Positions 25,543-59,394 of a stretch of 64,000 nucleotides of DNA are shown here, in pieces. Source of the stretch: an uncultured Parabacteroides sp. (GTDB lineage Bacteria; Bacteroidota; Bacteroidia; Bacteroidales; Tannerellaceae); assembly GCA_934725305.1 (NCBI GenBank), contig CAKVBA010000005.1, positions 1 through 64,000 on the forward strand. The letters run 5' to 3'. Position 1 is the first letter of the stretch. Every line of letters starts with the position of its first letter. Below the pieces are notes generated by a model. That model was given only the letters and a program-made list of their open reading frames with translations. It ran no database searches and was not told the origin of the DNA. Both the position numbers and the translations under genes were made by a program.

Positions 25543-25573
25543 TAGCGTATTTTGAGAGCAAACGTATATATAC

Positions 25574-27659: not shown

Positions 27660-27665
27660 TCAATG

Positions 27666-27755: not shown

Positions 27756-27779
27756 TTTTACCCTCTCCTTGCATAAAGG

Positions 27780-34429: not shown

Positions 34430-36769
34430 CTACTCACTCTTGATGCTATCCACCGGATTGGCATTGGCCGCACGCCAGCTCTGCATAAAAACGGTGGCAA
34501 ACGAAATCACCAGACAAAACAGACCTGCTGCCAAATAGATAAATGGACTCAACGAGATGCGATAATCGTAGCCCGACAACCAGTCACTCATGAAATACCA
34601 GATGATAGGTATAGCCAAGACAAAGGCAATTGCCACATAAGCCAGGAAGGAAGAGATCAGCTTCACCAAAATCTCTCCATTGGTCGAACCGAACACCTTG
34701 CGCACCGACACCTCAACGGTTCGTTGCTGGATAAAATAGGTGGACATGGCCAGCAGACCCAGCAAAGAGATCACCACCGCAATGAAGGTGAACAGACTGA
34801 TAATGGTAGTCAAACGTAGTTGCGACTCGAATGAGTTCTGTATCTGCTGATCGATAAACGCACCGGAGAATTCTTCCAGTCCGGTTAGCTCGCACCATAG
34901 CTTGGAAACACGCTTCATCGCCTCGTAGGGATCGCCGTTCACCTCGACCAACACATTCCAGGGATGCACCTGCTCAGACTTCACAATGCGCAACGAGATG
35001 GGGCTGATATCGTTGGTAATATTGCCCAGGTGGAAATCTTTGATTACCCCCAAGAGAGGAATCTTCCAGTTATTACCATCAAGCGTAAACGAAGGTTCGT
35101 CGCCGGTAAGCGCCATCTGACGTAAGGCCTCTTCATTGATATACCATCCTTCGTCACCACTGGCCACCGCATTGTCTTTGATAAACTCAATGCCTAATAT
35201 ATCACAAAATGCCCTGTCGGCCACGAATTGCTGAAAACTGATATTCCGCCCTTGGAAAGTAGTGGAAACATTGTTTTGTCCACCCATAGGCGAGCCTTGA
35301 GACAATCCCACACGGTTCACACAAGCCATGCGACCCAACTCGTTGACAAAGGTCTGCAACTTGTCGTCCCCGCGTAGGGCAAAGGTAGATACATCGATGA
35401 TGTTGTGACTATTATAGCCCAAAGGAGCATGAATCAGAAGGTTGATCTGCAATACCATGGTGAGCGAACAGGCCAACAAGACAATGGTAATTATATTCTG
35501 GAAAGTGATGAAAAACTTGCTGAACACCATTTTAGACTTAGTACGGAAATTACCTCGCACCACCTCAATGGGCTTGGTATTGGAGATGATGATAGCAGGC
35601 AGCAGACCGGCAATGATTCCCACGCCAATGATGAGACCGATCGATAGCAACAGGCTCGTCGGTGTGATAGCATCTTTCAGATAGATCTTGGTCTGAAGCA
35701 GATTGCTGGCATAGGGCTCCATCACAAAGGACAGAAAGAGGGCAATGCCGAAAGAGATGAGGCTGAGCAGGGTCGATTCCATCATCAGGCGAAGAAAAAG
35801 ATCGAAACGCGATGAACCTAACAGACGGCGCGTGGCCATCTCTTTGGCACGAAAGCCGGTTTGGGCCACGGTCAGGTTCACATAGTTGATCACGGCGAAG
35901 AGCAGAATCAGCACCGCTATTGATAGCAACACTATCACAAAGTCACGATCGCCTCGATACAATGTGCGGCTACTCGATTCCTCACTCAAATAGAAGTCTG
36001 TAAAAGGGGTGATCAACACCTGCTTCACTACACCGCGATAATAGGGCCAGAAGAACTTTTTGAACCACTGAGCCATTTCGTCGGCCTTGCCTTGTAGGGC
36101 TGCTCCATGCTTCGTTTTGATGAAGGTAACGATGCATCCTGCGTTGTTCATATTGTCAAGCGAGATGGCTGAATTGAACGTAGGCAGATGGTGAACACCC
36201 ACCAGCAGGTCGCAATAGGGAATGGCGGAATGCTTGATATCCTTCATCACGGCTGAGACACTCACCGTCAAGTTGTCTAACAGACGGATGGTCTGTCCAA
36301 TGGGATTTTGTCCGGGAAAGGCCTTGTTGGCAAACCGCTCCGAGATAACCACCTGGCTTCCCTCTAAGGCATTCTCGGCGGTTCCATTCACGAGAGGAAA
36401 AGAGAAGAAGGAGAAGAAGGTGGTGTCGGCAAAGTTGATGGCCACACTATATTTATGATCTCTGATGGCAATCGTAATGCGGTCATCTTTGCCACACATC
36501 ATGGGACAGACAGCCTCCACCTCGGGATAGCGCTCCTGCACCATGTAGCCCAAAGGATAGGCCAATTCATAACGGTCTTCACACCCCAACAGATAGATCT
36601 CGTCGGCATGCTTCTGAAAACGATCGACCGACAACTCCTGCCAGGTGTAGGCTCCGATCAGGATGACAAACATAAGTGACAACGACAAGCCGAACACCTC
36701 AATAGCCGTATAGGTTTTGTTCTTTTGCAAGAACTTCAAATAAGATTTAATATTCAACAAATTATCCAT
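34430..36769 (-). CDS. FtsX/MacB-type ABC transporter permease (1)
   Basis: 779 residues. Organisation: N-terminal TM helix (about 21-42), MacB-type periplasmic domain, an FtsX block with three helices (about 285-430), another helix, a second periplasmic domain, and a C-terminal FtsX block (about 665-775). The tail ends WRAANANPVDSIKSE, shared with two paralogues. These permeases lack ATPase domains and export or mechanotransmit when joined with a LolD/MacB-like ATPase. It is the third gene of a unit that starts with the ATPase at 39943, 54 bp after permease 2. Confidence 0.88.
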   Translation of the reverse strand: MDNLLNIKSYLKFLQKNKTYTAIEVFGLSLSLMFVILIGAYTWQELSVDRFQKHADEIYLLGCEDRYELAYPLGYMVQERYPEVEAVCPMMCGKDDRITIAIRDHKYSVAINFADTTFFSFFSFPLVNGTAENALEGSQVVISERFANKAFPGQNPIGQTIRLLDNLTVSVSAVMKDIKHSAIPYCDLLVGVHHLPTFNSAISLDNMNNAGCIVTFIKTKHGAALQGKADEMAQWFKKFFWPYYRGVVKQVLITPFTDFYLSEESSSRTLYRGDRDFVIVLLSIAVLILLFAVINYVNLTVAQTGFRAKEMATRRLLGSSRFDLFLRLMMESTLLSLISFGIALFLSFVMEPYASNLLQTKIYLKDAITPTSLLLSIGLIIGVGIIAGLLPAIIISNTKPIEVVRGNFRTKSKMVFSKFFITFQNIITIVLLACSLTMVLQINLLIHAPLGYNSHNIIDVSTFALRGDDKLQTFVNELGRMACVNRVGLSQGSPMGGQNNVSTTFQGRNISFQQFVADRAFCDILGIEFIKDNAVASGDEGWYINEEALRQMALTGDEPSFTLDGNNWKIPLLGVIKDFHLGNITNDISPISLRIVKSEQVHPWNVLVEVNGDPYEAMKRVSKLWCELTGLEEFSGAFIDQQIQNSFESQLRLTTIISLFTFIAVVISLLGLLAMSTYFIQQRTVEVSVRKVFGSTNGEILVKLISSFLAYVAIAFVLAIPIIWYFMSDWLSGYDYRISLSPFIYLAAGLFCLVISFATVFMQSWRAANANPVDSIKSE

Positions 36770-36823
36770 AATCTATCATTTCTTCTTCTACCATTTACTT
36801 AATACTTCCCTCTCTTCTCTCAT

Positions 36824-39175
36824 CTACTCACTCTTGATGCTATCCACCGGATTGGCATTGGCCGCACGCCAGTTTTGGAAGGTAACGGTAGCGATGGTGA
36901 TCACGGCCACCAACAAGAACGCTACGGCATAGACCCACACATACATCGGCGTCTTGTAGGCAAAGTTCTCCAGCCAACGGCTCACGCCATACCAGGCCAA
37001 CGGCACGGCAATCACAAAGCAAAATATCATAATGCGGAGATAGACCTTGTTGAACATGATCAGAATCTCACCCGTAGAAGAACCCAACACCCTGCGAATG
37101 CCTATCTCTTTGCGGCGATATTCGCTATCAAACATCACAAGACCAAACACACCCACAATAGAGATGAAAACGGCAATCACACTAAAGAGAGTGATCAGCT
37201 TACTCATATTGACCTCTTTCCGATAAACCTGATCGAGCACCTCGTCAAAGAAGCGCACATGGAAAGGAAAATCCTTGTCAAACGTCTTAAGGGTTTTCTC
37301 GATATGCTGAACCGAAGCAAACATATCGCTACCGGCCTTGATCTGTACATAGAGATAGTTGTTCCAATACCAACTTTCATACGCTTCGCCATACAAGGTC
37401 TTTCCGGTCACCAGAAAACACATCGGCGTCACCTCCATGCGGAATGAGGCAAACTTTATATCGGGCATAAAACCGACAATCGGAATATCGTCTATCCCAA
37501 CATCATCCAACTCAAGATGATATTTCTTGCGTGCCGATTCATTAAAGATGAATGCTCCGGTCGATGTCAGGTGGTCTTCTTCCCGGAAGTCTCTTCCTTC
37601 GGTCACCGAAATACCCATCACACGCAGGAAGTTGGTTTCAACCGGAAGCACCTGAAAATTGACACTTTCTCCTTTATTCATACGCCCCCAATTCATATAC
37701 TGGTCTGACGAAGAGAGTATAGTTCGGGCAAAGGTCACATCTTCTACTTCGGCCCAATGGCGCAATTGTTCGCGAAGCGATTCATAATTCTTCTTCGCTT
37801 TGCTTCCGTTGATTTCACAAACAAGCAACTGATCTCGGTCGTATCCCAATGAGCTATTATGCATATAGCGGTTTTGCAACGACATAAACAAAGCACCTAT
37901 AATCAATGAGAAAGAGGCCACATACTGGATTGATATCAATAGGGCACGTAGCTTGCGACCTGTCGGCGAAAGGCCGAAAGAGCCCTTCAACACCAACGCC
38001 GGCTGAAACGACGTCATGTAGTAAGAGGGATAGATGCCGGCCAACAACCCGGTCAAGAGAGCCAGCAGAGCCGTTCCGCCCACCAAAGACAGATGGTTCA
38101 TCAGTCCCATATCGACACTGACCAGTTCGGCAAGGAAGCTCTTCCCGGCCAGATCAACCCAAAAGAGAGACAATCCAAACGCTAACAAAGCCACCAGCAT
38201 GGCTTCGAGAATCAGCGCCAGACGGATCTCTTCTGCGGAATTTCCCAATATCTTTTGCGTGTTGATGCTCTTGATGCGCATCGGCGTCAGAGAGGTGCTG
38301 AAATTAGTATAGTTGATGCCGGCAATCACCACAATCACCACGGCAATAGCCATCAACAACCATACGGTTTGCCAACTGGTCTTGGGCACATTGTCATACA
38401 AGACCTGTCCCGAAAAATGCAATCCGGTCAAAGGTTCCAGACGTAGCGAGATAGAACTCTTTCCAAGCAGGTCTCTCTCCTTCTCCTTGAAGTTCTCAAA
38501 CAATCCGGACGCATTCTCCGGACGATCAACGCGGATAAAGAAGGAGTAGTTCCAGTTGTCCCATGAATTCTTGTTCTCATCGCCCAATGAATAATAGATA
38601 CAATTACTCATCGAACTGTTTTCGGCAAAGTCGCGGTAAACACCACCGACGGTTATACTGCTCTTCCCGAATTGTAAAGATCGGCCCACGGCCGACTCTT
38701 TGCCGAATAACTTACGTGCCATGCTCTCAGGCATCAACACCTGCTTGTTATCCTTCAAGACATGGGCATCTCCTTCAACCATCTCCAGATTAAATACATC
38801 TGTAAAAGAGGGACTCACCTTGCGGGCTGACTCCTGATAATTGATCAATTGACCCGCCTGCTCAACCGAGAACAAAAGGGTTTCCGTTCCGGTGTCACAA
38901 ATCGTTCCGGCCAGGATATGAGGAGACGATTGGGTAAAAACTTCGGCCATGGGACGAGCCACAATGGCCATCTGTCCGCGTTCGCTTTCTACCACATCCA
39001 CTCTATAGATACAATCGGCCTGCTTCACCGAACGGTCAAACGTCCAGTCATATTGCAATTGCATCATAATGATGATGAAGGCGGCAAAGGCCAATGATAA
39101 GCCAAGTATATTCAATGTCATCGCCATCTTGAAGCGACGCACAATGCTTAAGAAATTTCGTAACAACGTCTTCAT
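36824..39175 (-). CDS. FtsX/MacB-type ABC transporter permease (2)
   Basis: 783 residues from the ATG at 39175 (MKTLLRNFLSIVRRFKMAMT), which aligns with the paralogue's start; an upstream in-frame start adds 19 unlike residues. It has the same two-block architecture as permease 1, with helix ILGLSLAFAAFIIIMMQL near the N-terminus and FSVIAVFISIVGVFGLVMFDSE in the last block. Its final 45 codons are nearly identical in DNA to permease 3 (40119), suggesting gene conversion. It lies 88 bp after the ATPase gene and presumably shares its sigma-54 promoter. Confidence 0.88.
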   Translation of the reverse strand: MKTLLRNFLSIVRRFKMAMTLNILGLSLAFAAFIIIMMQLQYDWTFDRSVKQADCIYRVDVVESERGQMAIVARPMAEVFTQSSPHILAGTICDTGTETLLFSVEQAGQLINYQESARKVSPSFTDVFNLEMVEGDAHVLKDNKQVLMPESMARKLFGKESAVGRSLQFGKSSITVGGVYRDFAENSSMSNCIYYSLGDENKNSWDNWNYSFFIRVDRPENASGLFENFKEKERDLLGKSSISLRLEPLTGLHFSGQVLYDNVPKTSWQTVWLLMAIAVVIVVIAGINYTNFSTSLTPMRIKSINTQKILGNSAEEIRLALILEAMLVALLAFGLSLFWVDLAGKSFLAELVSVDMGLMNHLSLVGGTALLALLTGLLAGIYPSYYMTSFQPALVLKGSFGLSPTGRKLRALLISIQYVASFSLIIGALFMSLQNRYMHNSSLGYDRDQLLVCEINGSKAKKNYESLREQLRHWAEVEDVTFARTILSSSDQYMNWGRMNKGESVNFQVLPVETNFLRVMGISVTEGRDFREEDHLTSTGAFIFNESARKKYHLELDDVGIDDIPIVGFMPDIKFASFRMEVTPMCFLVTGKTLYGEAYESWYWNNYLYVQIKAGSDMFASVQHIEKTLKTFDKDFPFHVRFFDEVLDQVYRKEVNMSKLITLFSVIAVFISIVGVFGLVMFDSEYRRKEIGIRRVLGSSTGEILIMFNKVYLRIMIFCFVIAVPLAWYGVSRWLENFAYKTPMYVWVYAVAFLLVAVITIATVTFQNWRAANANPVDSIKSE

Positions 39176-39262
39176 GTATCTTCTATCTGTTTGAAGGATT
39201 ACACTATAAAAGACAGGCGGTTTTCTCTTCATAGCAACCTATAAATACACCGCCTTCCTCTA

Positions 39263-39943
39263 CTAAATAAACTCACTCACGGAAGAGACAATCGTTCCAT
39301 CGAACAGATTGATCACCCGATGAGCAAATCCGGCATCATGCTTAGAGTGGGTTACCATCACGATGGTTGTTCCCTCTTTATTCAATTCGGTCAATAGCTG
39401 CATCACCTCTTCGCCATTCTTAGAGTCCAGATTACCGGTTGGCTCATCGGCAAGGATTATCTTCGGATTAGAAACCACGGCACGGGCAATGGCTACACGT
39501 TGCTGCTGACCTCCGGACAACTGTTGTGGAAAGTGAGAGGCACGATGACCGATGTTCATACGCTCCAAGATCTCGGCCACTCTACGCTTACGTTCGTCCG
39601 GCTTCACATTCATATAGGTGAGCGGAAGCTCTACATTCTCGAACACATTCAATTCATCAATCAAGTTGAAGCTCTGGAACACAAAACCTATGTTGCCCTT
39701 GCGCACACGTGTACGCTCCTTCTCCTTCAGATGGCCCACCTCCTGATCTCCTAAATAATAGTTTCCTTCTGATGGGTTATCGAGCAAACCCAAGATATTC
39801 AACAATGTTGATTTACCACATCCTGACGGTCCCATAATGGCAACAAACTCACCGTCTTTCACCTCTAATGACACTTTGTTCAGAGCGATTGTTTCCACCT
39901 CTTCTGTACGGAAAAACTTGCTTAATTCTTCAACCTTAATCAT
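39263..39943 (-). CDS. ABC transporter ATP-binding protein (LolD/MacB type)
   Basis: 226 residues with the complete ATPase set: Walker A GPSGCGKSTLLN, Q-loop VFQSFNLIDELNVFENVELP, signature LSGGQQQRVAIARA, Walker B IILADEPTGNLDS and H-loop TIVMVTHSKH. It is the only ATPase among four permease genes, so it probably powers several of them as a homodimer. First gene of the leftward unit with permeases 2 and 1. A sigma-54-like promoter lies 48 bp upstream with twin TGTC-N9-GACA sites further up. Confidence 0.93.
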   Translation of the reverse strand: MIKVEELSKFFRTEEVETIALNKVSLEVKDGEFVAIMGPSGCGKSTLLNILGLLDNPSEGNYYLGDQEVGHLKEKERTRVRKGNIGFVFQSFNLIDELNVFENVELPLTYMNVKPDERKRRVAEILERMNIGHRASHFPQQLSGGQQQRVAIARAVVSNPKIILADEPTGNLDSKNGEEVMQLLTELNKEGTTIVMVTHSKHDAGFAHRVINLFDGTIVSSVSEFI

Positions 39944-39990
39944 AACTTTATCGTTTTTGTTGTTTATTATTTTATTCTTTATCTACATTC

Positions 39991-40010
39991 ATTCAAATAC
40001 CATGCCAAAA
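39991..40010 (-). promoter_or_regulatory. Sigma-54-like promoter of the ATPase-permease unit
   Basis: The - strand reads TTTTGGCATGGTATTTGAAT. It fits TGGCAyG-N4-TTGnA, with the -24 GG intact and GA in place of GC at -12. It is 48 bp from the ATPase start codon, and 52 bp upstream lies a twin dyad. Confidence 0.7.
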
Positions 40011-40062
40011 CAGATAAACGGCTATTATATAGCGTTATAACAATCATAGCATTTACTTCTAT

Positions 40063-40100
40063 TGTCCAATTTTTTGACACTGGTGTCCAATTATTTGACA
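40063..40100. promoter_or_regulatory. Twin 17-bp activator sites (ATPase unit)
   Basis: TGTCCAATTTTTTGACA (40063-40079) and TGTCCAATTATTTGACA (40084-40100) are separated by CTGG, so centres are 21 bp apart (two helical turns). The same pair appears near 45067 and 48861. Likely enhancer sites for the sigma-54 activator at 48955. Confidence 0.75.
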
Positions 40101-40118
40101 CTTTTCATTCTCCGCTCG

Positions 40119-42488
40119 CTACTCACTCTTGATGCTATCCACCGGATTGGCATTGGCCGCACGCCAGTTTTGGAAGGTAACGGTAGCGATGGTGATCACG
40201 GCCACCAACAAGAACGCTACGGCATAGACCCACACATACATCGGCGTCTTATAAGCAAAATTCTCCAACCAACGGCTCACACCATACCAGGCCAACGGCG
40301 CGGCCACCACGAAGCAGATTACCACCACACGCAGATAGGCACGGTTAAACATCAACAAGATGTCATCAACCGTGGCTCCATGCACCTTGCGGATACCAAT
40401 CTCTTTGCGGCGATATTCGCTATCGAACACAACCAGGCCAAACACGCCTACCAACGAAAGGATGACGGCCAATAGGCTCAACACCCATATCATGCTATTA
40501 AACAACTCTTCGCGATGATAGAGCTGATCGAACACGGTGTCATAAAACTCTATCTGGAATGGATAAGAAGAATCCAGATCATTCAAGGTCTTGCGGATAT
40601 GGTCAACGGCGGCATGCACATCGATCCCCGCTTTCAAACGTATATAAGAGATGGGCATGGGCATATGGGCTTTGGCTACAGCAAAGGCGATATTGCCCTC
40701 TTGCTGGCGAAGCGAGGTCAGCTTCACATCTCCCACAAATCCAATCAGACGACCCGGCAACCACCGGCCAAAAGCATCTCCCAACTCCATCTGATATTGC
40801 TCACGCGCCTTTCGGTTAAAGATATAGTAGGTGTCCTGACCCTTCTCGTCGGCCTTCGTGAAGTTTCGGCCTGCTTCCATTTTGATCCCCATCAAATCGA
40901 GGAAATTGGGCGAACAACCGATCAAGAAGAATTGCACTTTTTCTCCTTTATACTCGGCTGTATTGGTGTTATATCCATCCTGAGAACCCACCTTTTCCAT
41001 CGCAAAAGCCACATCCTCGATACCGGGATATTCCTTCAGACGGTTGGCATAGGTCTCGTGGTGCTTCATATACAAAGTGCTGCTCAGCTCTACAATGGCC
41101 ACCTGATCTTTGTCGAAGCCCAACTGGTAGTGACGCATATAGCCGTTTTGCAATCGGATAAAGAGTGAAAAGATGATCAGTATCAACGAAAAGACAAACT
41201 GAATACCCATCAGAGCCGCACGTAGTTTACGACCCGAAGGCGACAATCCAAAGCTACGCTTCAAGACCAAAGCCGGAGGAAACGAAGTGACATACCATGC
41301 CGGATAGAGTCCGGACAAGACTCCGATCAAAAGGGCCAACAAGCCCGTAAAGGCAAGGATCATCCAATTAGAAGCCATATCGAGATCAGACTCAACGAAG
41401 GATAGCCATTGTGTATCAGCCAGCAGAGCGATGATAAACAGACCCAATATCCAAGCCACCACACTAATGATACAGGCCTCAGCCAACAGAGCCAGACGCA
41501 AAGAGGTTTCACTACTTCCCAACACCTTTTGCGTATTGATGCAACGGATGCGGAGCGGGGTCAACGAGGTGCTGAAGTTGGTAAAATTGATAGCGCCTAC
41601 CAGAATGATCAGCAGAGCAATACCCAACAACAGATAGGTAGTCTCCCGGTCTCCACTCTTGAAGATTCGTGCGTCAACACTTCCCGATTGAAAATAGATA
41701 TCGGTCAGGGGGATAAGCGTAACCCCGGCATCGGAATTCCACCTCTTACCGACAAAGTCGAAAGAGCGGTTGAAGTTGTCGGCCACCTCCTTGGCATTCG
41801 ACGCATCGTCGAGCAACAGGTAACAGATATAGTTGCTGGCCGTAAAATTCATGCGCATATATTCCGGATCAATGGCGGTGTAGATAACATTGCGCAACTG
41901 GGTATTACCGGGCAGATCCCGATAAACGGCTCCTACGGTATAGTTCAACTGGTTTTCATCTTTAGTCCATATCGGCTCTTCGGCATGTAGCGATTTTCCC
42001 ACGGCCGAACCGTTGCCAAACATACGACGAGCCATACTTTGCGGTATCATCACCTTGTCCGGCTGAGCCAAACAATGGGCATCGCCCTCTATCAAGGTCA
42101 ATCCAAACACCTGCGGAAAGGCGGGAGAGCAGCTATAGAGCGTCTCTTTATACCCCTGACGCATTCCTTCGCGCTCAACGGTAAAATAGATTTCACCGAT
42201 ATAGGGACAAAGCAGAGTGCCCGCTTCGATGTGGGGCGAAGAGGCAATCACCTCTTCTACCAATCCTCGTGAATGAATGGAGCCAAAGGTAGTATTCACA
42301 CCTGCCATATCTACCCGAAAAACCCGATCGGCCGTAGGATGGCAACGGTCAAAGGTGTATTCATAACGTACCTGCATCAATATAATCATAAAGGCAGCAA
42401 ACGCTACGGCAAAGCCAAATACATTCAATGTCATCGCCATCTTGAAGCGACGCACAATACTCAAAAAGTTTCGTAATAATAGTTTCAT
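40119..42488 (-). CDS. FtsX/MacB-type ABC transporter permease (3)
   Basis: 789 residues with the same two MacB/FtsX block layout as permeases 1 and 2; the N-terminus MKLLLRNFLSIVRRFKMAMT is almost identical to permease 2, and so is the C-terminus (WRAANANPVDSIKSE). It follows permease 4 by 63 bp in the same direction and has no promoter of its own that I can see, so it is the second gene of that unit. Between the two genes are three 15-bp tandem repeats at 42491-42535. The stop codon is only 19 bp from the twin activator sites of the ATPase unit. Confidence 0.88.
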   Translation of the reverse strand: MKLLLRNFLSIVRRFKMAMTLNVFGFAVAFAAFMIILMQVRYEYTFDRCHPTADRVFRVDMAGVNTTFGSIHSRGLVEEVIASSPHIEAGTLLCPYIGEIYFTVEREGMRQGYKETLYSCSPAFPQVFGLTLIEGDAHCLAQPDKVMIPQSMARRMFGNGSAVGKSLHAEEPIWTKDENQLNYTVGAVYRDLPGNTQLRNVIYTAIDPEYMRMNFTASNYICYLLLDDASNAKEVADNFNRSFDFVGKRWNSDAGVTLIPLTDIYFQSGSVDARIFKSGDRETTYLLLGIALLIILVGAINFTNFSTSLTPLRIRCINTQKVLGSSETSLRLALLAEACIISVVAWILGLFIIALLADTQWLSFVESDLDMASNWMILAFTGLLALLIGVLSGLYPAWYVTSFPPALVLKRSFGLSPSGRKLRAALMGIQFVFSLILIIFSLFIRLQNGYMRHYQLGFDKDQVAIVELSSTLYMKHHETYANRLKEYPGIEDVAFAMEKVGSQDGYNTNTAEYKGEKVQFFLIGCSPNFLDLMGIKMEAGRNFTKADEKGQDTYYIFNRKAREQYQMELGDAFGRWLPGRLIGFVGDVKLTSLRQQEGNIAFAVAKAHMPMPISYIRLKAGIDVHAAVDHIRKTLNDLDSSYPFQIEFYDTVFDQLYHREELFNSMIWVLSLLAVILSLVGVFGLVVFDSEYRRKEIGIRKVHGATVDDILLMFNRAYLRVVVICFVVAAPLAWYGVSRWLENFAYKTPMYVWVYAVAFLLVAVITIATVTFQNWRAANANPVDSIKSE

Positions 42489-42490
42489 AT

Positions 42491-42535
42491 CAATTGTTTG
42501 TTTTACAATTGTTTGTTTTACAATTGTTTGTTTTA
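42491..42535. repeat. Triple 15-bp tandem repeat
   Basis: CAATTGTTTGTTTTA is repeated three times without a gap, in the 5' leader of permease 3. Copy number could vary by slippage and alter the spacing between the two permease genes. Confidence 0.85.
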
Positions 42536-42551
42536 CATCTATTTATTTCTA

Positions 42552-44954
42552 TTACTCACTCTTCAGACAATTAACCGGATTCTCGCGTGCGGCCTTCTCC
42601 GATCTAATAATAACAACCAGCACAACAACAACCAATACGGCCACACCACAACCCAAGAAGATATACCAGGAAAGAGGCACCTTCTCGATAAACTGCTCTT
42701 GCCATTTGCCGGCAATCACATAGGCAATCAAGCCGCCCACCACCACGGCCGGCAAAGCCATGCGGGTGATATCATGCAGATACATCTTTATCACTTCGCG
42801 GATAGTGGCTCCATTAATCTTACGGATAGCCATTTCTTTACGGCGTCGGTTCACCTCGTCTTGTGTATAGCCCACCAGACCGATCAACGAGATCAGCAGG
42901 GTTGTCAATCCTCCAATCAACACCGCACTACGGAAACGACGTGCATCGCTATAGCAGTTGACCATCTCGCTCCGATAAGAGAAAAGCGGCATCAAGCGGT
43001 CGGGAAATGTTTGCTCCATCACATGCCGGGCTTGTGCCATGGCATCACTGGATAGTTGATAGAATTGTACCACCAAGATTTCGCTCGGAACAGAACGGTA
43101 AAACAACACCTTCGGACGTTCATCCACACCGGAGATTGAGCCCAGACGGAAATCTTCAAACACACCACAAATAGTAAACGGAGTGTTGTTGTCGCCGCTA
43201 TGCTCGGTCACCAAGATCTGTTTACCTACGGCTCCGTCCGACCAATCAACGAAACGGCTCATCTTTTCTACAAAGCTACGGCTCACCATCACTTCGTCGG
43301 AATAGGCCACACCCTCACGGAACGAACGTCCCTCAACGACCGGAATCTCCATCATCTCTAAATAGCCTTCACCACAACTATACAGATCGGCCACATTGAA
43401 CAACTCTCTATCAGAACCGGGCAAATAGATATTATTGCCGTTGGCACGGGCAAACAATAATTGCGAACAGGTGGTTACCTTCTTCACCACGGGCAGACGC
43501 ATCATCTCGTCAATCACCTTGCGGCGTGCGGTTGAATCGGTTCCGGCCAGATTGGTAAAAGCCATCTCTTCATACTGATAGCCGGGCTTGTCGTGAGTCA
43601 TATAGTCGTATTGACGGCCAATCACTACCAACAAGGTCAACAAAAAGCCGGCGGCCACAAATTGAACGGAGAGCAACCCCAGCTTCCACAAGCGCTTATT
43701 CTCCTTCAATCCTCGAAAGGCGGCTATCACCGGAATGTGGGCATACAAATAGCCCGGTACAAATCCGGTGGCCAACAACACAACCACACAAATCAATGCC
43801 AACACAACCGATCCTTTTGAAAGGAACAACGTCTCAACAGAGACCGACAACAACTCTTCGACCACCTCGCTAAAGGCCAGAATAAGCAACATCGCTATCG
43901 CTACGGAGATCAACACATGAAGCAAGGCTTCGAAGAATACCATCGTATGGATGTCTCGTGCACCAGCACCATAGCATTTACGTACCGACACCTCTTTGAC
44001 GCGATTGATGATTGATGAAACCACAATCAGTATATAATTCATCACGGCCGTAAAAATCAGAGCCAAAGCCAACAGAGAGAGCAACCACATAGAGCGCTTC
44101 ACCTCCGGATTGTTGGTGTGTAGTTCGGTTAGCTTATAGAATGAATAAGAGAGATTTATATCACTTTGTGCCCTCAGGGCTTCCATATCAATGTGACGGC
44201 CCATCACCGTATGTATCTCGTCCATCAGCTCTTCGGGATGAACGCCCGGAATCAATTTGATATATCCCCTATAACGGTCGTTGCCCAGCCAATTTATCGT
44301 ACCGTCGAACCGACCATTGGACTGGCGCAACATCAACTGGCGATAGGTCACCAAGCTCAACACAACGTCCACACCATACAGATGAGAGTTTTCAGGAATC
44401 TCTTCAAACACACCTCCAATGGTCAGATGATAGCCGGGCCACTCGTCGGGCGTGATCTGCTTGCCTACGACATTCCCTCCCATCAACTTGGCCAAACGGT
44501 CAGAGATCATCACCTGTTCCGGTAGCGACAACACCTGCTTGGGGTCGCCCGACAATATCTTACGCGGAAAGAAATCAAAGAAACAACTATCAGCCGTAAT
44601 CATCTGATTGATGGAATATTTCTGCTTGGTATCCACCATCGTTACATTAGCCTTACCAAGTAACGGCGTAAAGCGTGTAGCCGCTTCTATCTGTGGTATC
44701 TCTTCTTTCAACCCAACCACAACGCCGCCACTAATTCCCTCAAACTCGCTCAAGTCGTTGTTCCTCTTTATTTTTTCATAAAGTCGGTAAATACGGTCGC
44801 CATCGGGATAGAAATCATCATACGATTGTTCAAAATAGACTTTGGCAATCAACACCAATCCAACGGCCAGCCCTACCGACAAAGAGGTTATCTTCATCAG
44901 GTTGTGACGTCCCTTCTGAAACAAGGAGCGACATGCTATTAATAAATTCTTCAT
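42552..44954 (-). CDS. FtsX/MacB-type ABC transporter permease (4)
   Basis: 800 residues with the two-block FtsX/MacB layout. It is the most divergent of the four: it starts MKNLLIACRSLFQKGRHNLMKITSLSVGLAVGLVLIAKV and ends KAARENPVNCLKSE, versus ANANPVDSIKSE in the others. First gene of the unit whose sigma-54-like promoter is at 44994-45013, with permease 3 behind it. No ATPase is in this unit, so it must borrow one, probably that at 39263. Confidence 0.88.
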   Translation of the reverse strand: MKNLLIACRSLFQKGRHNLMKITSLSVGLAVGLVLIAKVYFEQSYDDFYPDGDRIYRLYEKIKRNNDLSEFEGISGGVVVGLKEEIPQIEAATRFTPLLGKANVTMVDTKQKYSINQMITADSCFFDFFPRKILSGDPKQVLSLPEQVMISDRLAKLMGGNVVGKQITPDEWPGYHLTIGGVFEEIPENSHLYGVDVVLSLVTYRQLMLRQSNGRFDGTINWLGNDRYRGYIKLIPGVHPEELMDEIHTVMGRHIDMEALRAQSDINLSYSFYKLTELHTNNPEVKRSMWLLSLLALALIFTAVMNYILIVVSSIINRVKEVSVRKCYGAGARDIHTMVFFEALLHVLISVAIAMLLILAFSEVVEELLSVSVETLFLSKGSVVLALICVVVLLATGFVPGYLYAHIPVIAAFRGLKENKRLWKLGLLSVQFVAAGFLLTLLVVIGRQYDYMTHDKPGYQYEEMAFTNLAGTDSTARRKVIDEMMRLPVVKKVTTCSQLLFARANGNNIYLPGSDRELFNVADLYSCGEGYLEMMEIPVVEGRSFREGVAYSDEVMVSRSFVEKMSRFVDWSDGAVGKQILVTEHSGDNNTPFTICGVFEDFRLGSISGVDERPKVLFYRSVPSEILVVQFYQLSSDAMAQARHVMEQTFPDRLMPLFSYRSEMVNCYSDARRFRSAVLIGGLTTLLISLIGLVGYTQDEVNRRRKEMAIRKINGATIREVIKMYLHDITRMALPAVVVGGLIAYVIAGKWQEQFIEKVPLSWYIFLGCGVAVLVVVVLVVIIRSEKAARENPVNCLKSE

Positions 44955-44993
44955 ACCGATTATTATTTTAATTATTCTTTTCTACACTACTCC

Positions 44994-45013
44994 ATTCAAA
45001 TATCATGCCAAAA
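44994..45013 (-). promoter_or_regulatory. Sigma-54-like promoter of the permease 4-3 unit
   Basis: The - strand reads TTTTGGCATGATATTTGAAT, with one base different from the 39991 copy. It lies 40 bp before the start codon of permease 4, and 53 bp downstream of the twin activator sites. Confidence 0.7.
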
Positions 45014-45066
45014 CAGATAAACGGCTATTATACAATAATATATCTATCACAATATTTACTTCCTAC

Positions 45067-45104
45067 TGTCCAATTTTTTGACACTGGTGTCTAATTTTTT
45101 GACA
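45067..45104. promoter_or_regulatory. Twin 17-bp activator sites (permease 4-3 unit)
   Basis: TGTCCAATTTTTTGACA (45067-45083), CTGG, TGTCTAATTTTTTGACA (45088-45104): same length, spacer and phasing as at 40063 and 48861, with one substitution (C to T) in the second site. Confidence 0.75.
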
Positions 45105-46125
45105 CTTTTAGAAATGTTCACCTATCACCCAGAGGGCGTTGCCCCGAGTTATGGAGTGCACAAAAAAACGAAAACATGGAATCTCTAATCAATGATGATA
45201 GTTATTGTAATTTAATCAAGTTCGTTTTTGCTAACAACGAGAGATAAATCCATTAGAGACAACGGGGCATTTTGTCACGACGGACAGACAAGTCCGTCTC
45301 GGGCTAAAGAGTCTATAAAATAAGGTTATAGGCTCTTTTTTAAGGGTCTATAGAGTTTTTGAAAAAAGGGTATAGACTATTCGGAAAAAGTATAGGGACT
45401 TTTTTGAAAATGGGTAGGCACTCCGCTGGGATTGGGTAGGCACTCCGCTGGAAAGGAATAGTTACCCAATTTCCGAAAATAGCCTACTCCTTTTTCAGAG
45501 GATTAACAACCTCTTGTCCGCTCGTTGACTTATTGTATTTTTATAGAAATAAAGAATATGCTATTTTGATGCAGGGTATTCGGCAAAATGGCAGCTCTAC
45601 CGTACTTTTGCCCCTGTAGGGCGTAACCCATTATTTATCACATACCCAGGGCGTTGCCCCGGGCTAAGGAGCCCATTGGGCTTTCAGCCCGTTGTTGACG
45701 CACAAACAATCTTCCCAAAACCATACGACGGAATGCTCGTTGTTACAACGTTGTTGGTTTCCCATCCTTGCTTCATCATTCCTTCTTGTCGTTAGTGTTA
45801 TAGCTATGCGCCCTGTAAGGGGCAGCTCTAATATCACATTGTTTTTATAGTTGCCTTACAGGGCGTAACCATCTAAACACCTTTTACCCAGGGCGTTGTC
45901 ATGGGCTAAGAAAAACATTGCCCATGGCTTTCGCCACGGGCGCCGTTGCTATGTTGACGTTATCGTCGTGAATATTATATGGATGTGCTTTAAACGCGCC
46001 TCCAAATGGAGATGCCCAGGGCACTCGCCCTGGGTAGATAATGAGCATCACTGCCCATTCGCAAATAGAGTAAAATTAAAAAGAGTGTCGTATTCGATTT
46101 GTGTCAAACAACGGTCTGATGCGGT
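45105..46125. repeat. Composite interspersed-repeat island, copy 2
   Basis: About 1 kb with no gene. It includes palindromic units AGAGGGCGTTGCCC (about 45130), the module with 'ggcactccg' (45410-45455), CCCCTGTAGGGCGTAACCC (45612), ACCCAGGGCGTTGCCCCGGG (45644), GCCCATTGGGCTTTCAGCCC (45670) and CCCAGGGCACTCGCCCTGGG (46014). Most of 45270-45790 is the reverse of 24530-23860. It splits the efflux operons: HlyD/TolC on the right, permeases 4 and 3 on the left. Short frames here look like translated repeat. Confidence 0.7.
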
Positions 46126-47376
46126 TTACTCCAACACCAGCACTTCGTTGTTCTTATAACTCTCGTAGCTGGAGACAACCACACGTTCGCCCGCTTCGAG
46201 CCCTTCGAGCACCTCGTAATATTGCGGGTTCTGACGACCGATACGGATCGAACGGCGATAGGCCTTCTTGCCATCGGCATCCAACACAAAGATCCAGTTG
46301 CCGCCGGTTGATTGGAAGAAAGTGCCCTTGGGAATGATGATGCTCTCGGTGGGCTGACCCAGCTCCAGATTGATATAATAGGTCTGACCGCTACGGATGT
46401 TATCCGGACGCTCACCCGTGAAAACAAAATCGGCACGGAACTTGCCATCACGCACCTCGGGATAGACCTTGCGCACGGTCAAATCGAAGCTGCTACCCTG
46501 ACGATCAAACGAAGCCGAAAGCCCCTGCTTTACGCGGTCGATATAATGCTCGTCGATCAACGCTTCAATCTTATAGTCGGAAAGGTCGTTGATCTGACCG
46601 ATCTTCTGACCCGGTGTAATGTTCTGACCCAACACCACATCCAACAGGCCCAGCTCGCCATCAATCTGAGAACGCACATTCAAATTCTCCTTACGCTGAT
46701 GCACCAGCTGAATGTTACGGCGCATATTGGCCAAACTGATCTCCATCTCTTCCATCTGGATAGAGCGCGAGATAGAGTCTTGACGCAAACGCTCTGTCAC
46801 CAACGCATGCTTCTTGCTGGCCAACTCATAATCTTCACGTGCCTTCAAATAGTCCTCTTTGGCAATCAGATTCTCTTTATAGAGCTGCTCCTGCTGGCGA
46901 TAGCTACGCAAAGCGCGGGTCATATCCATATCGTATTGCAACTTCTCGGTCTCGTTGGACAACTTGTCCTGCTCCATGGTTACCTGTGTGTTGCGAAGGA
47001 AGTTCTGCTTCTCGGCCAATTCCGCCTCGGCGGTCAAGATCTGCAAATCGAGGTTTGAATTGGAAAGGCGCACAATCACATCGCCCTTCTTCACGTGGGC
47101 GCCCTCTTCTACCACACGCTCCTGCACGATGCCGCCTTCTTCGGGACTCAGCTGCACCACCGTGATCGGTTGCACCTGACCATCCACACGCACAAAATCG
47201 TTGAACTGCTCACGCTTCACATCGCCAATCGTAATGCCACGGGCATCCACCTTCAAAGTAGAGGCATGGTCGCCAAATACGACCCAACCCAACAAGCACA
47301 CAAACAAAGCTCCACCGGCTACATACGGAATATGTTTCTTCTGTAACCCTTTCTTTTTTTCTAACTGTATATCCAT
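46126..47376 (-). CDS. HlyD/MacA-type membrane fusion protein
   Basis: 416 residues. A single TM helix (YVAGGALFVCLLGWVVFG, about 18-35) is followed by the biotinyl-lipoyl half motif VRVDGQVQPITVVQLSPEEGGIV and VVEEGAHVKKGDVIVRL, a long helical hairpin (about 100-230, AEAELAEKQNFLRN) that would reach the TolC tip, then SQIDGELGLLDVVLGQNITPGQKIG and a beta-barrel. The order of domains is that of ABC efflux adaptors. It lies 37 bp after the TolC gene in the same direction. Confidence 0.9.
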   Translation of the reverse strand: MDIQLEKKKGLQKKHIPYVAGGALFVCLLGWVVFGDHASTLKVDARGITIGDVKREQFNDFVRVDGQVQPITVVQLSPEEGGIVQERVVEEGAHVKKGDVIVRLSNSNLDLQILTAEAELAEKQNFLRNTQVTMEQDKLSNETEKLQYDMDMTRALRSYRQQEQLYKENLIAKEDYLKAREDYELASKKHALVTERLRQDSISRSIQMEEMEISLANMRRNIQLVHQRKENLNVRSQIDGELGLLDVVLGQNITPGQKIGQINDLSDYKIEALIDEHYIDRVKQGLSASFDRQGSSFDLTVRKVYPEVRDGKFRADFVFTGERPDNIRSGQTYYINLELGQPTESIIIPKGTFFQSTGGNWIFVLDADGKKAYRRSIRIGRQNPQYYEVLEGLEAGERVVVSSYESYKNNEVLVLE

Positions 47377-47413
47377 GATGTTCTATTATTTATTTTCTAT
47401 CTATTACACTATA

Positions 47414-48757
47414 TCATTCGTTATAAAGCGGTTTGCCCTTGTAGTAATCGACCAGACGGCTCTTCATCATCAGCATCAGACGCTTCTGTAACAGGTCGGC
47501 CTTAGAAGTCAACAAGGTGTTCGAGCTGTTCTGTACATCGAGCGAGCTCATCAACCCCTCTTCATATTTGCGTAGCGTCACGCGATAGGCCAGATCGTCG
47601 GACTTCACCTTCTTCTCCATCTGAATAGTCTCCTTGGCATATCCCTCACGGTCGAGCACCGATTGCTCAATAGCGGCCTGAAGCTGGCGCAACACCTCGG
47701 TCTTCGTCTCTTCGGCCATGCGCAGATTGTTGTAGGAACGGCGCACATTGGTCACCTTCGACAAGCCATTGAATAGCGGGAAACTTACACTAAACGCAAT
47801 GTATTCGCCTCGGTTGTTCTTGAATTGTGAGCCAAATCCAACCGGCGCTATCTCGGACTTCAAGTTCTCGAAATAGTTTGTCACCACGCCTGCACTAAAC
47901 GAGATCTGAGGCAACATAGCTCCCTTTTGCATCCGATAGATATAGCGTTTCTCCTTCAGCTGATAGTCGGCCTGCAATGCCGTGGGATTGTTTTGGCTGG
48001 CATAGTCATAAATGGCCATCACCTCTTCGCCTATCGGCTCCGGCTTCACGTCGGGCAACACCGTATCCACCTCAAGCACCGAGTCGGTCGGGAAGTTCAT
48101 CTTCTGCTTCAGGCTCAACAGGGCACTGTTATAGAGGTTTTGCTGATGTGTCAGGGCATAATCGTCGGCTGCTACCTGCGCCTCAAACTGAGCCACATCG
48201 GCCCGTCCCTTCAAGCCCAACTCCTCTTGGCGGCGTGTCTTATATAATGTGCGGGAGCTCTCTTCCAGCTTCTCCGAAGCCATGCGGATGGTGCCACGAT
48301 AATAGACCACATCGGCATAGGCCGTCATCACATCCAACGCCAAATCGTCTTTCACCTTCTGCAGGTCGTTCTTTGCCATACGCACATTCGACTTTGCCAT
48401 CAACCACTGGTTGATCAGCTGACCGCCGGTAAAAAGCGGAATGGAAGAAGACAGCTGATAGCTATTGTTGAATGTTGAGGTGTTGTTATAGGTATTGGTC
48501 TCGGGATCGACCGAACGACCGAAGTTATACTGAGCACCCACACTGGCCGACACCGTCGGGAAGAACGAGGCTACCGCCGATGCACGTTCGGCCTTATAGC
48601 TCCGATAGGTATAACCCTGTTTTTTCACCGCCGGACTGTTCTCTACGGCATAGCGCATACAGGCATCCAATGTCCATGCTCCACTACTCTCCTCTTGTGC
48701 TGCCATCGTAGCAACAAGCATGAATGATAGAATCGATGTTTGAAATATCTTTTTCAT
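47414..48757 (-). CDS. TolC-family outer membrane channel
   Basis: 447 residues from the ATG at 48757 (MKKIFQTSILSFMLVATMAAQ, signal peptide); an upstream frame would add 18 residues without signal character. Two similar halves each carry the long coiled helices of TolC (AENSPAVKKQGYTYRSYKAERAS and NPTALQADYQLKEKRYIYRM), with the SFFPTVSASVGAQYNFG strand regions. It forms the outer-membrane end of the tripartite pump. First gene of its unit; its promoter is a perfect sigma-54 match 32 bp upstream. Confidence 0.92.
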   Translation of the reverse strand: MKKIFQTSILSFMLVATMAAQEESSGAWTLDACMRYAVENSPAVKKQGYTYRSYKAERASAVASFFPTVSASVGAQYNFGRSVDPETNTYNNTSTFNNSYQLSSSIPLFTGGQLINQWLMAKSNVRMAKNDLQKVKDDLALDVMTAYADVVYYRGTIRMASEKLEESSRTLYKTRRQEELGLKGRADVAQFEAQVAADDYALTHQQNLYNSALLSLKQKMNFPTDSVLEVDTVLPDVKPEPIGEEVMAIYDYASQNNPTALQADYQLKEKRYIYRMQKGAMLPQISFSAGVVTNYFENLKSEIAPVGFGSQFKNNRGEYIAFSVSFPLFNGLSKVTNVRRSYNNLRMAEETKTEVLRQLQAAIEQSVLDREGYAKETIQMEKKVKSDDLAYRVTLRKYEEGLMSSLDVQNSSNTLLTSKADLLQKRLMLMMKSRLVDYYKGKPLYNE

Positions 48758-48788
48758 CTTCTGTTTTTTATTTTTTCTACTTACTCTA

Positions 48789-48808
48789 ATGCAAAGAGCG
48801 TGCCAAAA
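48789..48808 (-). promoter_or_regulatory. Sigma-54 promoter of the tolC-hlyD unit
   Basis: The - strand reads TTTTGGCACGCTCTTTGCAT, an exact TGGCACG-N4-TTGCA consensus. It is 32 bp from the tolC ATG and 52 bp downstream of the twin activator sites, the same geometry as at 39991 and 44994. Confidence 0.88.
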
Positions 48809-48860
48809 CACTCAATCAGCTATCATTCACGCAATTAGTCAAATCGCCCTATTTGCTAAG

Positions 48861-48898
48861 TGTCAAATATTTGGACACTGGTGTCAAATATTTGGACA
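48861..48898. promoter_or_regulatory. Twin 17-bp activator sites (tolC unit)
   Basis: TGTCAAATATTTGGACA occurs twice (48861-48877 and 48882-48898) with CTGG between. Each is a TGTC-N9-GACA dyad. They lie between the divergent tolC unit and the activator gene, so the same sites could also affect the activator's own promoter. Confidence 0.8.
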
Positions 48899-48902
48899 GA
48901 CC

Positions 48903-48932
48903 ATTGGCGTAAAAAGAAAAACATTACCTTTG
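48903..48932 (+). promoter_or_regulatory. Promoter of the activator gene
   Basis: ATTG (48903-48906, one mismatch to TTTG), 18-bp spacer, TACCTTTG (48925-48932). Start expected near 48939, giving a short leader before the ATG at 48955. It lies 4 bp past the twin activator sites, so the activator could repress itself. Confidence 0.55.
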
Positions 48933-48954
48933 TAATCAACTAAAGAAGAAAAAA

Positions 48955-50307
48955 ATGAACAAACAAGGAACCATCTTAGTGGTAGATGACAACAAGGGCA
49001 TTTTAGCGGCCGTGAAAATGCTACTTGCCAGCTGCTTTAAAAAAGTTCTCACGCTCTCTCAGCCCGACCGAATCAAAACAATCCTACAAGAAGAGGAGGT
49101 CGATATCATCCTGCTCGATATGAATTTCAGTGCCGGCATAAATAGTGGTAACGAAGGACTCTTCTGGCTCTCGGAGATCAAGAAGACGGCACCGGATGTC
49201 GAAGTGGTGTTGTTTACCGCCTATGCCGATATTGAGCTGGCGGTAAGAGGCATCAAAGAGGGAGCAGCAGACTTCGTGGTGAAACCTTGGGACAACACCA
49301 AGTTGCTGGAGACCCTTCGGGCAGCCTACCAAAAACGGAAAGAAAGGCACGAAGACGCTTCTTCTCGCCACTCGTTCACTCCGGGCGATATGTTTTGGGG
49401 CGAAAGCAAACCGATGCGCCAGCTGAAGCAACTGATCGAGAAAGTGGCGAAAACAGATGCCAACCTGCTCATCACCGGCGAAAATGGTACCGGCAAGGAG
49501 ATGCTGGCCCGCGAGATTCACCACCTGTCAACTCGCAAAGACGAGGCTCTGGTCACGGTGGATATGGGTGCACTCACCGAGACATTGTTTGAAAGCGAAC
49601 TGTTTGGCCATGTGAAAGGGGCTTTTACCGACGCCCATACCGACCGCCCCGGCAAGTTCGAGACGGCCAATGGGGGCACACTCTTCCTCGACGAGATTGG
49701 CAACCTCTCTTATCATCTGCAAGCCAAACTATTGACGGCCTTGCAACGGCGATGTATCGTCCGCGTAGGTAGCAACACGCCCATTCCGGTGAACATCCGC
49801 CTGATCTCTGCGACCAACCGCGACCTTCAAGAGATGGTGCAGAAAGATCAGTTCCGCGAAGACCTGCTCTATCGTATCAACACCATTCATTTGCATATTC
49901 CTCCTTTGCGCGAGCGCACCGACGACATTGTGCCCTTAGCGCAGATCTTTCTGGATAAATATGCCAAGATCTATGGCAAGGGGCAGATGCAGATCAGCGA
50001 CAATGCGGCCGATTGCCTGAAGGCTCAACCCTGGTTTGGCAACATCCGCGAACTGGAACATACCATCGAAAAGGCGGTGATCATCTGCGAGGGCAACACG
50101 TTGCACCACGACGACTTCGACTTTCAGCCGGCTCAGAAAGAGACGACAACAACCGAAGAGGCGTCCATAACCACTCTCGAAGAGATGGAATATACGATGA
50201 TAAAGAATGCCATGGATAAATTCGAGGGCAATCTGTCGATGGTGGCCGCCCAATTAGGCATCTCGCGGCAGACGCTCTATAACAAGATAAAACGATACAA
50301 ATTGTAA
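48955..50307 (+). CDS. Sigma-54-dependent response regulator (NtrC/AtoC type)
   Basis: 450 residues in three domains. Receiver (1-125): acidic D11-D12, phospho-acceptor D55 in IILLDMNF, Lys in VVKPWD. AAA+ domain (about 140-380): Walker [26 protein letters not shown], Walker [11 protein letters not shown] and arginine fingers in the REDLLYRIN region. C-terminal Fis-type helix-turn-helix: [23 protein letters not shown]. The sigma-54 contact loop reads GAFTDA rather than GAFTGA. It is divergent from tolC and next to a histidine kinase, and the dyads in the intergenic gap are the likely binding sites. Confidence 0.94.
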
Positions 50308-50320
50308 CGAATCGCAGAAG

Positions 50321-51731: not shown

Positions 51732-51764
51732 TAAGATGCCATAAGAGTTTGATCGACGCTATTT

Positions 51765-52225
51765 TTTACTTTTGCCCCTTACAGGGCGTAACCCATTATT
51801 TATCACATACCCAGGGCGCCCTGCCCTGGGCTAAGGAGACCATTGGGCCTTCAGCCCGTCTTTGCAACGTTGTTGGTTTCCCCGTCCTTGCAAACATCGT
51901 TCCTCCTTGTCGTTATTGTTATTAGTGAAAGTAAAATAACGCCAATAATACGTTGCGTGAATCCAATGCGTTGCCATTGGGTAATGTTTGTGGTAACAGC
52001 GGGCTGAAAGCCCAAAGTTCTTCACAGCCCAAGGCAGGGCGCCTTGGGGATGATTCGATTATGAGCTATGCGCCCTGTAAGTGGCAAAAGTAAAATAACG
52101 CCAATAATACGTTGCGTGAATCCAATGTATTGCCATTGGGTAAATGTTTGTGGGTTGACAACGGGCTGAAAGCCCAATGGTCTCAACAGCCCAGGGCAAC
52201 GCGCCCTGGGTGATAGAGAGAGGGT
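51765..52225. repeat. Interspersed-repeat island, copies 3 and 4
   Basis: Two tandem partial copies of the interspersed repeat. CCCAGGGCGCCCTGCCCTGGG and ATTGGGCCTTCAGCCCG open the first; an AATACGTTGCGTGAATCCAA unit (51945 and 52106) is present in both; GGGCTGAAAGCCCAA occurs at about 52001 and 52165. The frames inside it (for example 51831-52025) are translated repeat. It fills the gap between the kinase and the smalltalk gene, where related loci often have an amidase. Confidence 0.7.
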
Positions 52226-57839: not shown

Positions 57840-57870
57840 ACATATAATACTCATATATACACACATCTTT

Positions 57871-57903
57871 TCGAGTGCTTGACAAACCTCGTTAAAAACA
57901 AGA
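57871..57903 (+). promoter_or_regulatory. Probable class I preQ1 riboswitch
   Basis: CGAG (57872-57875) pairs with CTCG (57888-57891) around a 12-nt loop, TGCTTGACAAAC, followed by TTAAAAACAAG; CAAG in the tail can pair with CTTG in the loop. This is the stem-loop/pseudoknot plan of class I preQ1 aptamers, with the same loop length as Bacillus subtilis queC and a tail like that of Thermoanaerobacter. It ends 3 bp before the start codon of a queuosine-precursor transporter, so it would mask the ribosome site. The stem is short (4 bp). Confidence 0.7.
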
Positions 57904-57906
57904 TTT

Positions 57907-58593: not shown

Positions 58594-58602
58594 TTCCCCT
58601 CT

Positions 58603-59217: not shown

Positions 59218-59394
59218 GATAAATTCCTCTTTCATAAACAACAATGCCTCAACAAACCCCTCTACAGGGCTCTTTTTCAACACACACCGGCCGTTCACAA
59301 ATATAAACAAAATTATTACATTATATTATTATTGGTGTAACAATTTTTACATTCTGTCAACCAAAAACAACGCCAGACGACACACACCGACCGG

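Follow-up and report, generated by a model that had tools for sequence, protein, structure and literature searches.

Among the closest described counterparts of the locus studied here are the MacAB-TolC efflux pumps, in which MacB is a single chain with the ATPase fused to the permease. ADOP permeases form large paralogous sets without an adjacent ATPase. A 2025 survey predicted that COG0577 FtsX-like ABC permeases of Bacteroidia are under sigma-54 control (PMC12316311), and a sigma-54 regulon was mapped in Flavobacterium (PMC9723704). We analyzed 64,000 nucleotides (nt) from an uncultured Parabacteroides sp. (assembly GCA_934725305.1, contig CAKVBA010000005.1, positions 1 to 64,000), referred to as the window. 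Its region 34430-51643 encodes four duplicated MacB_PCD-FtsX permeases, an ABC ATPase, a HlyD-type adaptor, a TolC-type channel, an NtrC-type response regulator and a histidine kinase. As in MacAB-TolC, a MacB-type ABC ATPase, MacB_PCD-FtsX permeases, a HlyD/MacA-like adaptor and TolC are encoded together. Unlike in MacAB-TolC, the ATPase is a separate protein of 226 amino acids, and the permeases are duplicated single chains of 779-800 amino acids, several per ATPase.

The region in all likelihood encodes an envelope-efflux regulon of one two-component system, with three sigma-54 promoters and MacAB-TolC-like pumps sharing one ATPase. The sequence basis covers the parts, their geometry, their conservation and the co-occurrence of regulator and dyads. 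In the mechanism that we infer, the kinase (50321-51643) would phosphorylate the NtrC-type regulator (48955-50307). The regulator would then bind as paired dimers to twin dyads (TGTCNAA-N3-TTNGACA, twice) centred ~100 base pairs (bp) upstream of the start, and would drive sigma-54 RNA polymerase to form open complexes at the three -24/-12 promoters. Such activation would jointly switch on the TolC-HlyD conduit, the one ABC ATPase and the four duplicated MacB/YbbP-like permeases. Their products would assemble into tripartite MacAB-TolC-like pumps in which interchangeable permeases share the ATPase. The kinase may respond to the state of the transporter or to membrane stress and, as in Bce modules, would detect it within the membrane.

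Promoters and twin dyads in the window

The efflux genes form three minus-strand units, ATPase-permease-permease, permease-permease and TolC-HlyD, and the regulator and kinase genes are divergent from TolC. The predicted promoter elements are as follows.

39992..40007, minus strand: predicted sigma-54 -24/-12 core, 16 nt, TGGCATGGTATTTGAA, before ATPase-permease-permease
40063..40100 (40063-40079 and 40084-40100), strandless: twin dyads, putative enhancer
44995..45010, minus strand: predicted sigma-54 -24/-12 core, 16 nt, TGGCATGATATTTGAA, before the two permeases
45067..45104 (45067-45083 and 45088-45104), strandless: twin dyads, putative enhancer
48790..48805, minus strand: predicted sigma-54 -24/-12 core, 16 nt, TGGCACGCTCTTTGCA, before TolC-HlyD; all 12 consensus positions match
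48861..48898 (48861-48877 and 48882-48898), strandless: twin dyads, putative enhancer

A first-pass annotation had placed three sigma-54 20-mers on the minus strand, each with two TGTC-N9-GACA dyads lying 52-53 bp from the 20-mer, 21 bp apart and joined by CTGG. All of these were found exactly where it put them, the units behind them have the gene content it described, and the activator and kinase genes do lie beside the third promoter. It also called the dyad sites identical, which holds for the half-sites and linker within the window; the inner bases differ, and the CTGG linker varies in relatives. Each promoter has two exact dyads with starts 21 bp apart and the CTGG linker on the plus strand. 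The proximal dyads lie 55-56 bp and the distal ones 76-77 bp from the core. The cores ending at 40007, 45010 and 48805 score 10, 10 and 12 out of 12. Cores of at least 10/12 occur eight times in the window, hence the core motif alone is common; the rarity lies in its fixed placement beside dyads.

Single TGTC-N9-GACA dyads number 7 in the window, against 0.98 expected from shuffling. The window has 3 exact twin dyads; 20 whole-window shuffles and 500 shuffles of the three intergenic pieces gave none. Chance as the origin of the twin dyads is ruled out by these shuffles and by the reversed-pattern controls given below. The first-pass annotation had judged chance unlikely from the recurrence at three sites. 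The shuffles agree, yet the three sites are not all independent, the permease-side pair being likely duplicated, and the window alone probably provides about two independent promoter cases; conservation, described below, is the more stringent test.

The twin dyads at 48861..48898 stop 57 nt ahead of the regulator start codon, so autoregulation of the regulator through them is possible. Just ahead of the regulator gene, positions 48925-48932 of the plus strand read TACCTTTG, which resembles the Bacteroides -7 element TAnnTTTG.

The genes of the region are:

34430..36769, minus strand: duplicated FtsX/MacB_PCD permease A1, 779 amino acids
36824..39196, minus strand: duplicated FtsX/MacB_PCD permease A2, 790 amino acids
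39263..39943, minus strand: ABC ATPase of MacB/LolD/DarD type, 226 amino acids
40119..42488, minus strand: duplicated permease B1, 789 amino acids; predicted model with eight long helices and two periplasmic domains
42552..44954, minus strand: duplicated permease B2, 800 amino acids
46126..47376, minus strand: periplasmic adaptor of HlyD/MacA/DarC type, 416 amino acids
47414..48757, minus strand: TolC-type outer membrane channel, 447 amino acids from ATG
48955..50307, plus strand: NtrC-type response regulator with receiver, sigma-54 AAA+ domain (GAFTDA loop) and Fis helix-turn-helix
50321..51643, plus strand: sensor histidine kinase with two membrane helices, a very short loop, a PAS match below cut-off and a HATPase domain

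GC-rich repeats, interspersed and partly inverted, flank the TolC-HlyD/regulator block at 45133-45920 and 51764-52211. Elsewhere in the window, an abiF RNA (Rfam RF03085; 25580-25616, minus strand) lies directly upstream of an open reading frame (ORF) of 314 amino acids (24631-25575, minus strand), which is perhaps an Abi-type phage-defence gene. A TPP riboswitch (27661-27757, plus strand) precedes an ORF at 27780.

Conservation and the activator of the dyads

With the regulator as query, we fetched the best 80 of 558 related loci, from Tannerellaceae, Bacteroidaceae and Rikenellaceae. Of the 80, 38 have the twin-dyad promoter element. In 39 the fetched stretch includes efflux genes of this type, and 38 of those 39 carry the element, as expected if the dyads are conserved upstream of orthologous units; the exception (L033) has a core and a good proximal dyad, with no distal dyad in register. 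The same geometry recurs in all three families. The genomes of 11 named relatives, all with rpoN, contain 40 twin-dyad places, of which 31 have 21-bp and 9 have 22-bp spacing; 36 of the 40 are at efflux genes, so that no crowd of unrelated matches was found. Reversed-pattern controls on these genomes gave 0 and 1 matches, the single one in G011. A twin dyad occurs in 80 of 118 Tannerellaceae genomes, compared to 2 that match the reversed control, once each. Bacteroides cellulosilyticus, with the regulator and no strict match, was considered as a counterexample and rejected: the element precedes its ATPase gene, with a degenerate distal dyad. The two-component sigma-54 efflux regulon of the first-pass annotation is thus strongly supported by sequence. 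Its description as self-contained fits the window; in relatives the members are often dispersed, with genome-wide scatter in Rikenella.

To describe the geometry we used 111 twin-dyad sites, the 40 from the named genomes and 71 among the matches listed from the 118-genome scan, with a core threshold of at least 11/15 and dyad-core distances of 45-65 bp searched. A -24/-12 core was found at 106 sites. The proximal dyad lies 53-56 bp from it in 106/106 (53 bp in 12, 54 bp in 25, 55 bp in 60 and 56 bp in 9), and GGCA is present in all of them, in a search that favoured GG. Of the other five sites, two are third dyads within triple sites, two lie on the permease side and have a poor core, and L158 has neither core nor efflux gene. 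Taking the earliest match downstream as the first gene, 100 of the 106 cored promoters precede efflux genes: a permease in 49, TolC in 29, the ATPase in 21 and HlyD in 1. One promoter counted as permease-first precedes a broken permease remnant (L194, promoter beside 3695), and one counted as ATPase-first is probably followed by a short ATPase-like stretch ahead of a permease (L198). The six other first genes are the candidate RNA described below (in two species), two Rikenella units and two genes in one Parabacteroides genome (G025). In Rikenella, one promoter stands before three DUF2807 genes (L125 3780-7215, minus strand), the other before a DUF4932 gene and then a TonB-receptor-plug gene (L130 3301-7629, minus strand). 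In G025 (L186 and L187, promoters beside 3784 and 3765), genes for a lipoprotein-like protein of 419 amino acids and a secreted-looking protein of 134 amino acids lie downstream.

The window regulator has the domains PF00072, PF00158, PF25601 and PF02954, with Walker motifs present. It was sought in the 118 Tannerellaceae genomes at E 1e-120, a close ortholog being defined by an identity of at least 63%. Twin dyads occur in 72/72 genomes with a close ortholog (247 sites) and in 8/46 without one (Fisher p 2e-23, a value that genome kinship makes too small). Since dyad presence follows the close ortholog, the twin dyads are very probably the enhancer of the neighbouring NtrC-type regulator.

The same genomes hold further regulator-kinase-ABC clusters with other dyad sequences (L213-L228), and the C-terminal helices differ between the paralogous regulator groups. 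Regulators of 54-55% identity (L219, L222, L225) go with twin dyads of the type (C/T)GTCAAA..TTTGAC(A/G), 23 bp apart, those of 47-48% (L215, L220, L223) with TGTCCG..GGACA dyads, and that of 44% (L214) with a single TGTACGA..TCGTACA dyad. In 7 of 12 paralogous cases a convincing -24/-12 element lies ~52-54 bp from the dyad. In the other five it is not convincing: L213 has the same dyads and no core in register, L217 has a core seen only for another gene start, L218 has twin TGTATGA..TCATACA, no recognised core and a fragmentary regulator, and in L221 and L224 the core lies within a repeat.

Two other accounts of the dyads need to be considered. The three promoters could be alike through recent unit duplication only, with dyads that are not functional enhancers. 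The two permease-side promoters of the window do align closely far past the motifs, and therefore look like a recent duplication rather than independent evidence. The TolC promoter, however, keeps the motifs in more divergent flanks, the dyads recur in three families with their 21-22 bp spacing and 53-56 bp distance, and their presence follows the regulator, which makes this account hardly credible. It is also improbable, though somewhat less so, that another regulator, either a paralogous sigma-54 activator or a repressor, reads the dyads and that the adjacent two-component system controls something else. Several paralogous regulators are present in the same genomes, one of them beside the similar (C/T)GTCAAA dyad at 23-bp spacing. 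However, several of them adjoin dyads of their own, and the window-type dyads track the close ortholog, not the relatives of 58-61% identity (1/12 genomes) or genomes with more distant regulator matches or none (7/34).

Some observations weigh against the adjacent regulator as the sigma-54 activator of these dyads. The eight genomes with dyads and no close ortholog, one of them with a 58-61% regulator, do not conform to it; incomplete assemblies may explain some of them. The 63% line was set after seeing the gap in identities, and 4 of the 72 close orthologs are partial matches (G104, G034, G050, G027). Kinship and incomplete assemblies weaken the p value, not its direction. The C of the -12 doublet is present in only 40 of the 106 related promoters. 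The textbook sigma-54-contact loop is GAFTGA; the window regulator has GAFTDA, and 79 regulator orthologs have GAFTDA (55), GSFTDA (21) and GAFTGA (3). GAFTDA is also found in 12/12 paralogous regulators, and judging from these alignments GAFTDA/GSFTDA is a habit of the lineage.

The N-terminus of the window kinase consists of two membrane helices linked by few residues, which is why the kinase probably senses within the membrane, by analogy to BceS with BceAB (PMC10314905). A short-loop two-helix N-terminus was recognised by eye in the 13 rows listed of 73 aligned kinases. Automatic counts of hydrophobic segments vary among the 73, with two segments in 35.

Pump parts and the candidate RNA

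In the window, the ATPase gene is adjacent to permease genes. The P. gordonii region C2:1564819-1601381 holds 12 permeases and 1 ATPase of this type. Rikenella microfusus has only 1 ATPase at E 1e-70 and 8 permeases at E 1e-40; four of the eight are encoded outside the cluster and have twin dyads of their own, in three cases accompanied by a clear -24/-12 element. For 35 of the 49 permease-first units, the available sequence within 4.5 kb contains no ATPase. These gene counts suggest that one ATPase may serve several interchangeable permeases. They also leave points on the other side: only 10 of the 35 units have 4.5 kb of sequence on both sides, and several genomes have two close ATPases plus paralogs, so 'one ATPase' is not universal.

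Permease B1 was modelled from 35 sequences (mean pLDDT 82.9, pTM 0.77). In the model its helices appear as two repeats of a membrane helix, a periplasmic domain and three membrane helices. The best solved matches are YbbAP, MacB and LolCDE (LolE), followed further down by BceAB (BceB); over the whole chain the TM-scores reach modest values (0.43 for YbbAP). Sequence comparison puts the ATPase closest to S. pneumoniae 5xu1 and MJ0796, with MacB and LolD next. All four permeases are nearest to ADOP (TIGR03434) among the named NCBIfam models, at 163-230 bits vs a cut-off of 622.3.

What the pumps export, and by which route, can be read in other ways. Export of an endogenous peptide or lipid, as by DarBCD with darobactin, rather than of outside toxins is possible, if doubtful. 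DarD and DarC are the nearest named NCBIfam models for the ATPase and the adaptor (287.4 bits vs a cut-off of 375 and 214.7 vs 450), yet every DarBCD score, including the remaining ones of 61.5-83.4 vs 700, is below its curated cut-off, whereas the adaptor passes the general RND_mfp cut-off (147.9 vs 94.9). Two-component induction and the many permeases per genome would better fit varied external challenges. We regard it as rather unlikely that the permeases bypass TolC in a YbbAP-like extraction of hydrophobic compounds from the inner membrane, with TolC-HlyD serving only some of them. E. coli YbbAP is the best solved-structure match of the predicted permease, and some permeases are encoded far from TolC-HlyD; against this, the permeases are predicted to be co-regulated with TolC-HlyD in the window, and TolC is the first gene at 29 of the 106 related promoters.

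In P. goldsteinii, P. gordonii, P. faecis, G096 and G104, one promoter copy precedes a conserved stretch of ~150 nt that is predicted to form three to four hairpins and ends like a terminator.

L110 16809-16978, minus strand: candidate small RNA of P. goldsteinii
L107 14833-15002, minus strand: candidate small RNA; also in L008, L133 and L135

Folding of the candidate RNA gave z-scores of -4.15, -2.77 and -3.17; the stretch used for the third value truncates the first hairpin. An ATG with the same four codons following (MCVFN) occurs in 5/5 candidate RNAs, opening ORFs of 17-49 codons. The reading frame after MCVFN is not kept between species, which makes an RNA the likelier product on sequence grounds and a tiny peptide the less likely one. 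In P. chinchillae (L007) the promoter is followed by a shorter form of the candidate RNA. The RNA probe matches 4 of the 118 Tannerellaceae genomes, and Rfam gave no match in loci L107, L110, L007 and L008. In the window, neither a motif scan nor a reading of 57601-59400, past the undecaprenyl-phosphate-translocase-like gene, revealed the candidate RNA, with no covariance model used. In L107 and L110 the candidate RNA faces a gene that matches this translocase-like gene by place and size. In P. faecis and G096 (L008 and L133), a second sigma-54 core was seen by eye ahead of the candidate RNA, in L133 with a single TGTCC-N6-GGACA palindrome upstream; the two elements suggest that a second activator may act on the candidate RNA.

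These observations could be part of a broader picture, which we offer as tentative and regard as less likely than not. A Bacteroidales cell would hold several insulated copies of one design, each with an NtrC-type regulator, its own twin-dyad code, a near-fixed distance to the sigma-54 promoter and a pump set sharing an ATPase. Many interchangeable permeases, often orphans, would depend on a single ATPase and, in some copies, on a single TolC-HlyD conduit, and the kinase would read transporter state in the membrane. Some Parabacteroides would add a structured small RNA or tiny peptide. If true, the multi-copy shared-ATPase design would explain the role of duplicated orphan permeases.

Comparison with described systems

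The first-pass annotation proposed an undescribed system. No description of the activator, enhancer, regulon or several-permeases-per-ATPase layout came up in our searches of an open-access library; the accessible parts of PMC12596196, PMC10994844 and PMC9723704 make no mention of this activator or regulon. The word 'undescribed' is too strong because the families of the pump parts are known and sigma-54 control of FtsX-like permeases was already predicted (PMC12316311). What appears new is the matched activator and enhancer, the use of the promoter type of the ATPase and TolC-HlyD for duplicated permeases that often have no ATPase nearby, the paralogous modules with other dyads at similar distance, and, in some Parabacteroides, the candidate gene for a small RNA or tiny peptide. 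For a large class of ABC pumps in gut bacteria, these results pair a particular activator with a particular enhancer. They provide a search pattern, twin dyads spaced 21-22 bp and placed 53-56 bp before a -24/-12 element, with which further members can be located wherever they lie in a genome, and a testable proposal for permeases without their own ATPase, namely that such permeases use a common one. DNA choice by Fis-type helices could be studied on the paralogous regulators, a natural set in which the dyads differ and the distance is similar.

The prediction of the 2025 survey agrees with ours in sigma factor, permease class and bacterial class. It came from a promoter-matrix survey, the accessible text of which names no activator, enhancer site, twin-dyad geometry or permease-to-ATPase layout (PMC12316311). 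The DarBCD darobactin exporter (NCBIfam NF038008, NF038010, NF038007) has the same part types and gives the nearest named models for ATPase and adaptor; unlike its members, the window proteins score under the equivalog cut-offs. ADOP (TIGR03434) has a similar internally duplicated FtsX-type permease and is the nearest named permease model, with the window permeases below its subfamily cut-off. YbbAP (PDB 9ge6; PMC12646458), which acts with TesA, is the top structural match of predicted permease B1 by E-value, at 12% identity. QseF/GlrR-GlmY (PMC8745638) shares an NtrC-type regulator, the outer half-sites (TGTC-N10-GACA) and sigma-54, as well as a small RNA target, a candidate for which is present in some Parabacteroides; unlike it, the window has N9 spacing, twin sites and different main targets. 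The BceAB-BceRS flux-sensing modules (PMC10314905) likewise combine an FtsX-type permease, a kinase without an extramembrane sensing domain and a regulator inducing the transporter, whereas the regulator here is of the NtrC type and a predicted sigma-54 activator.

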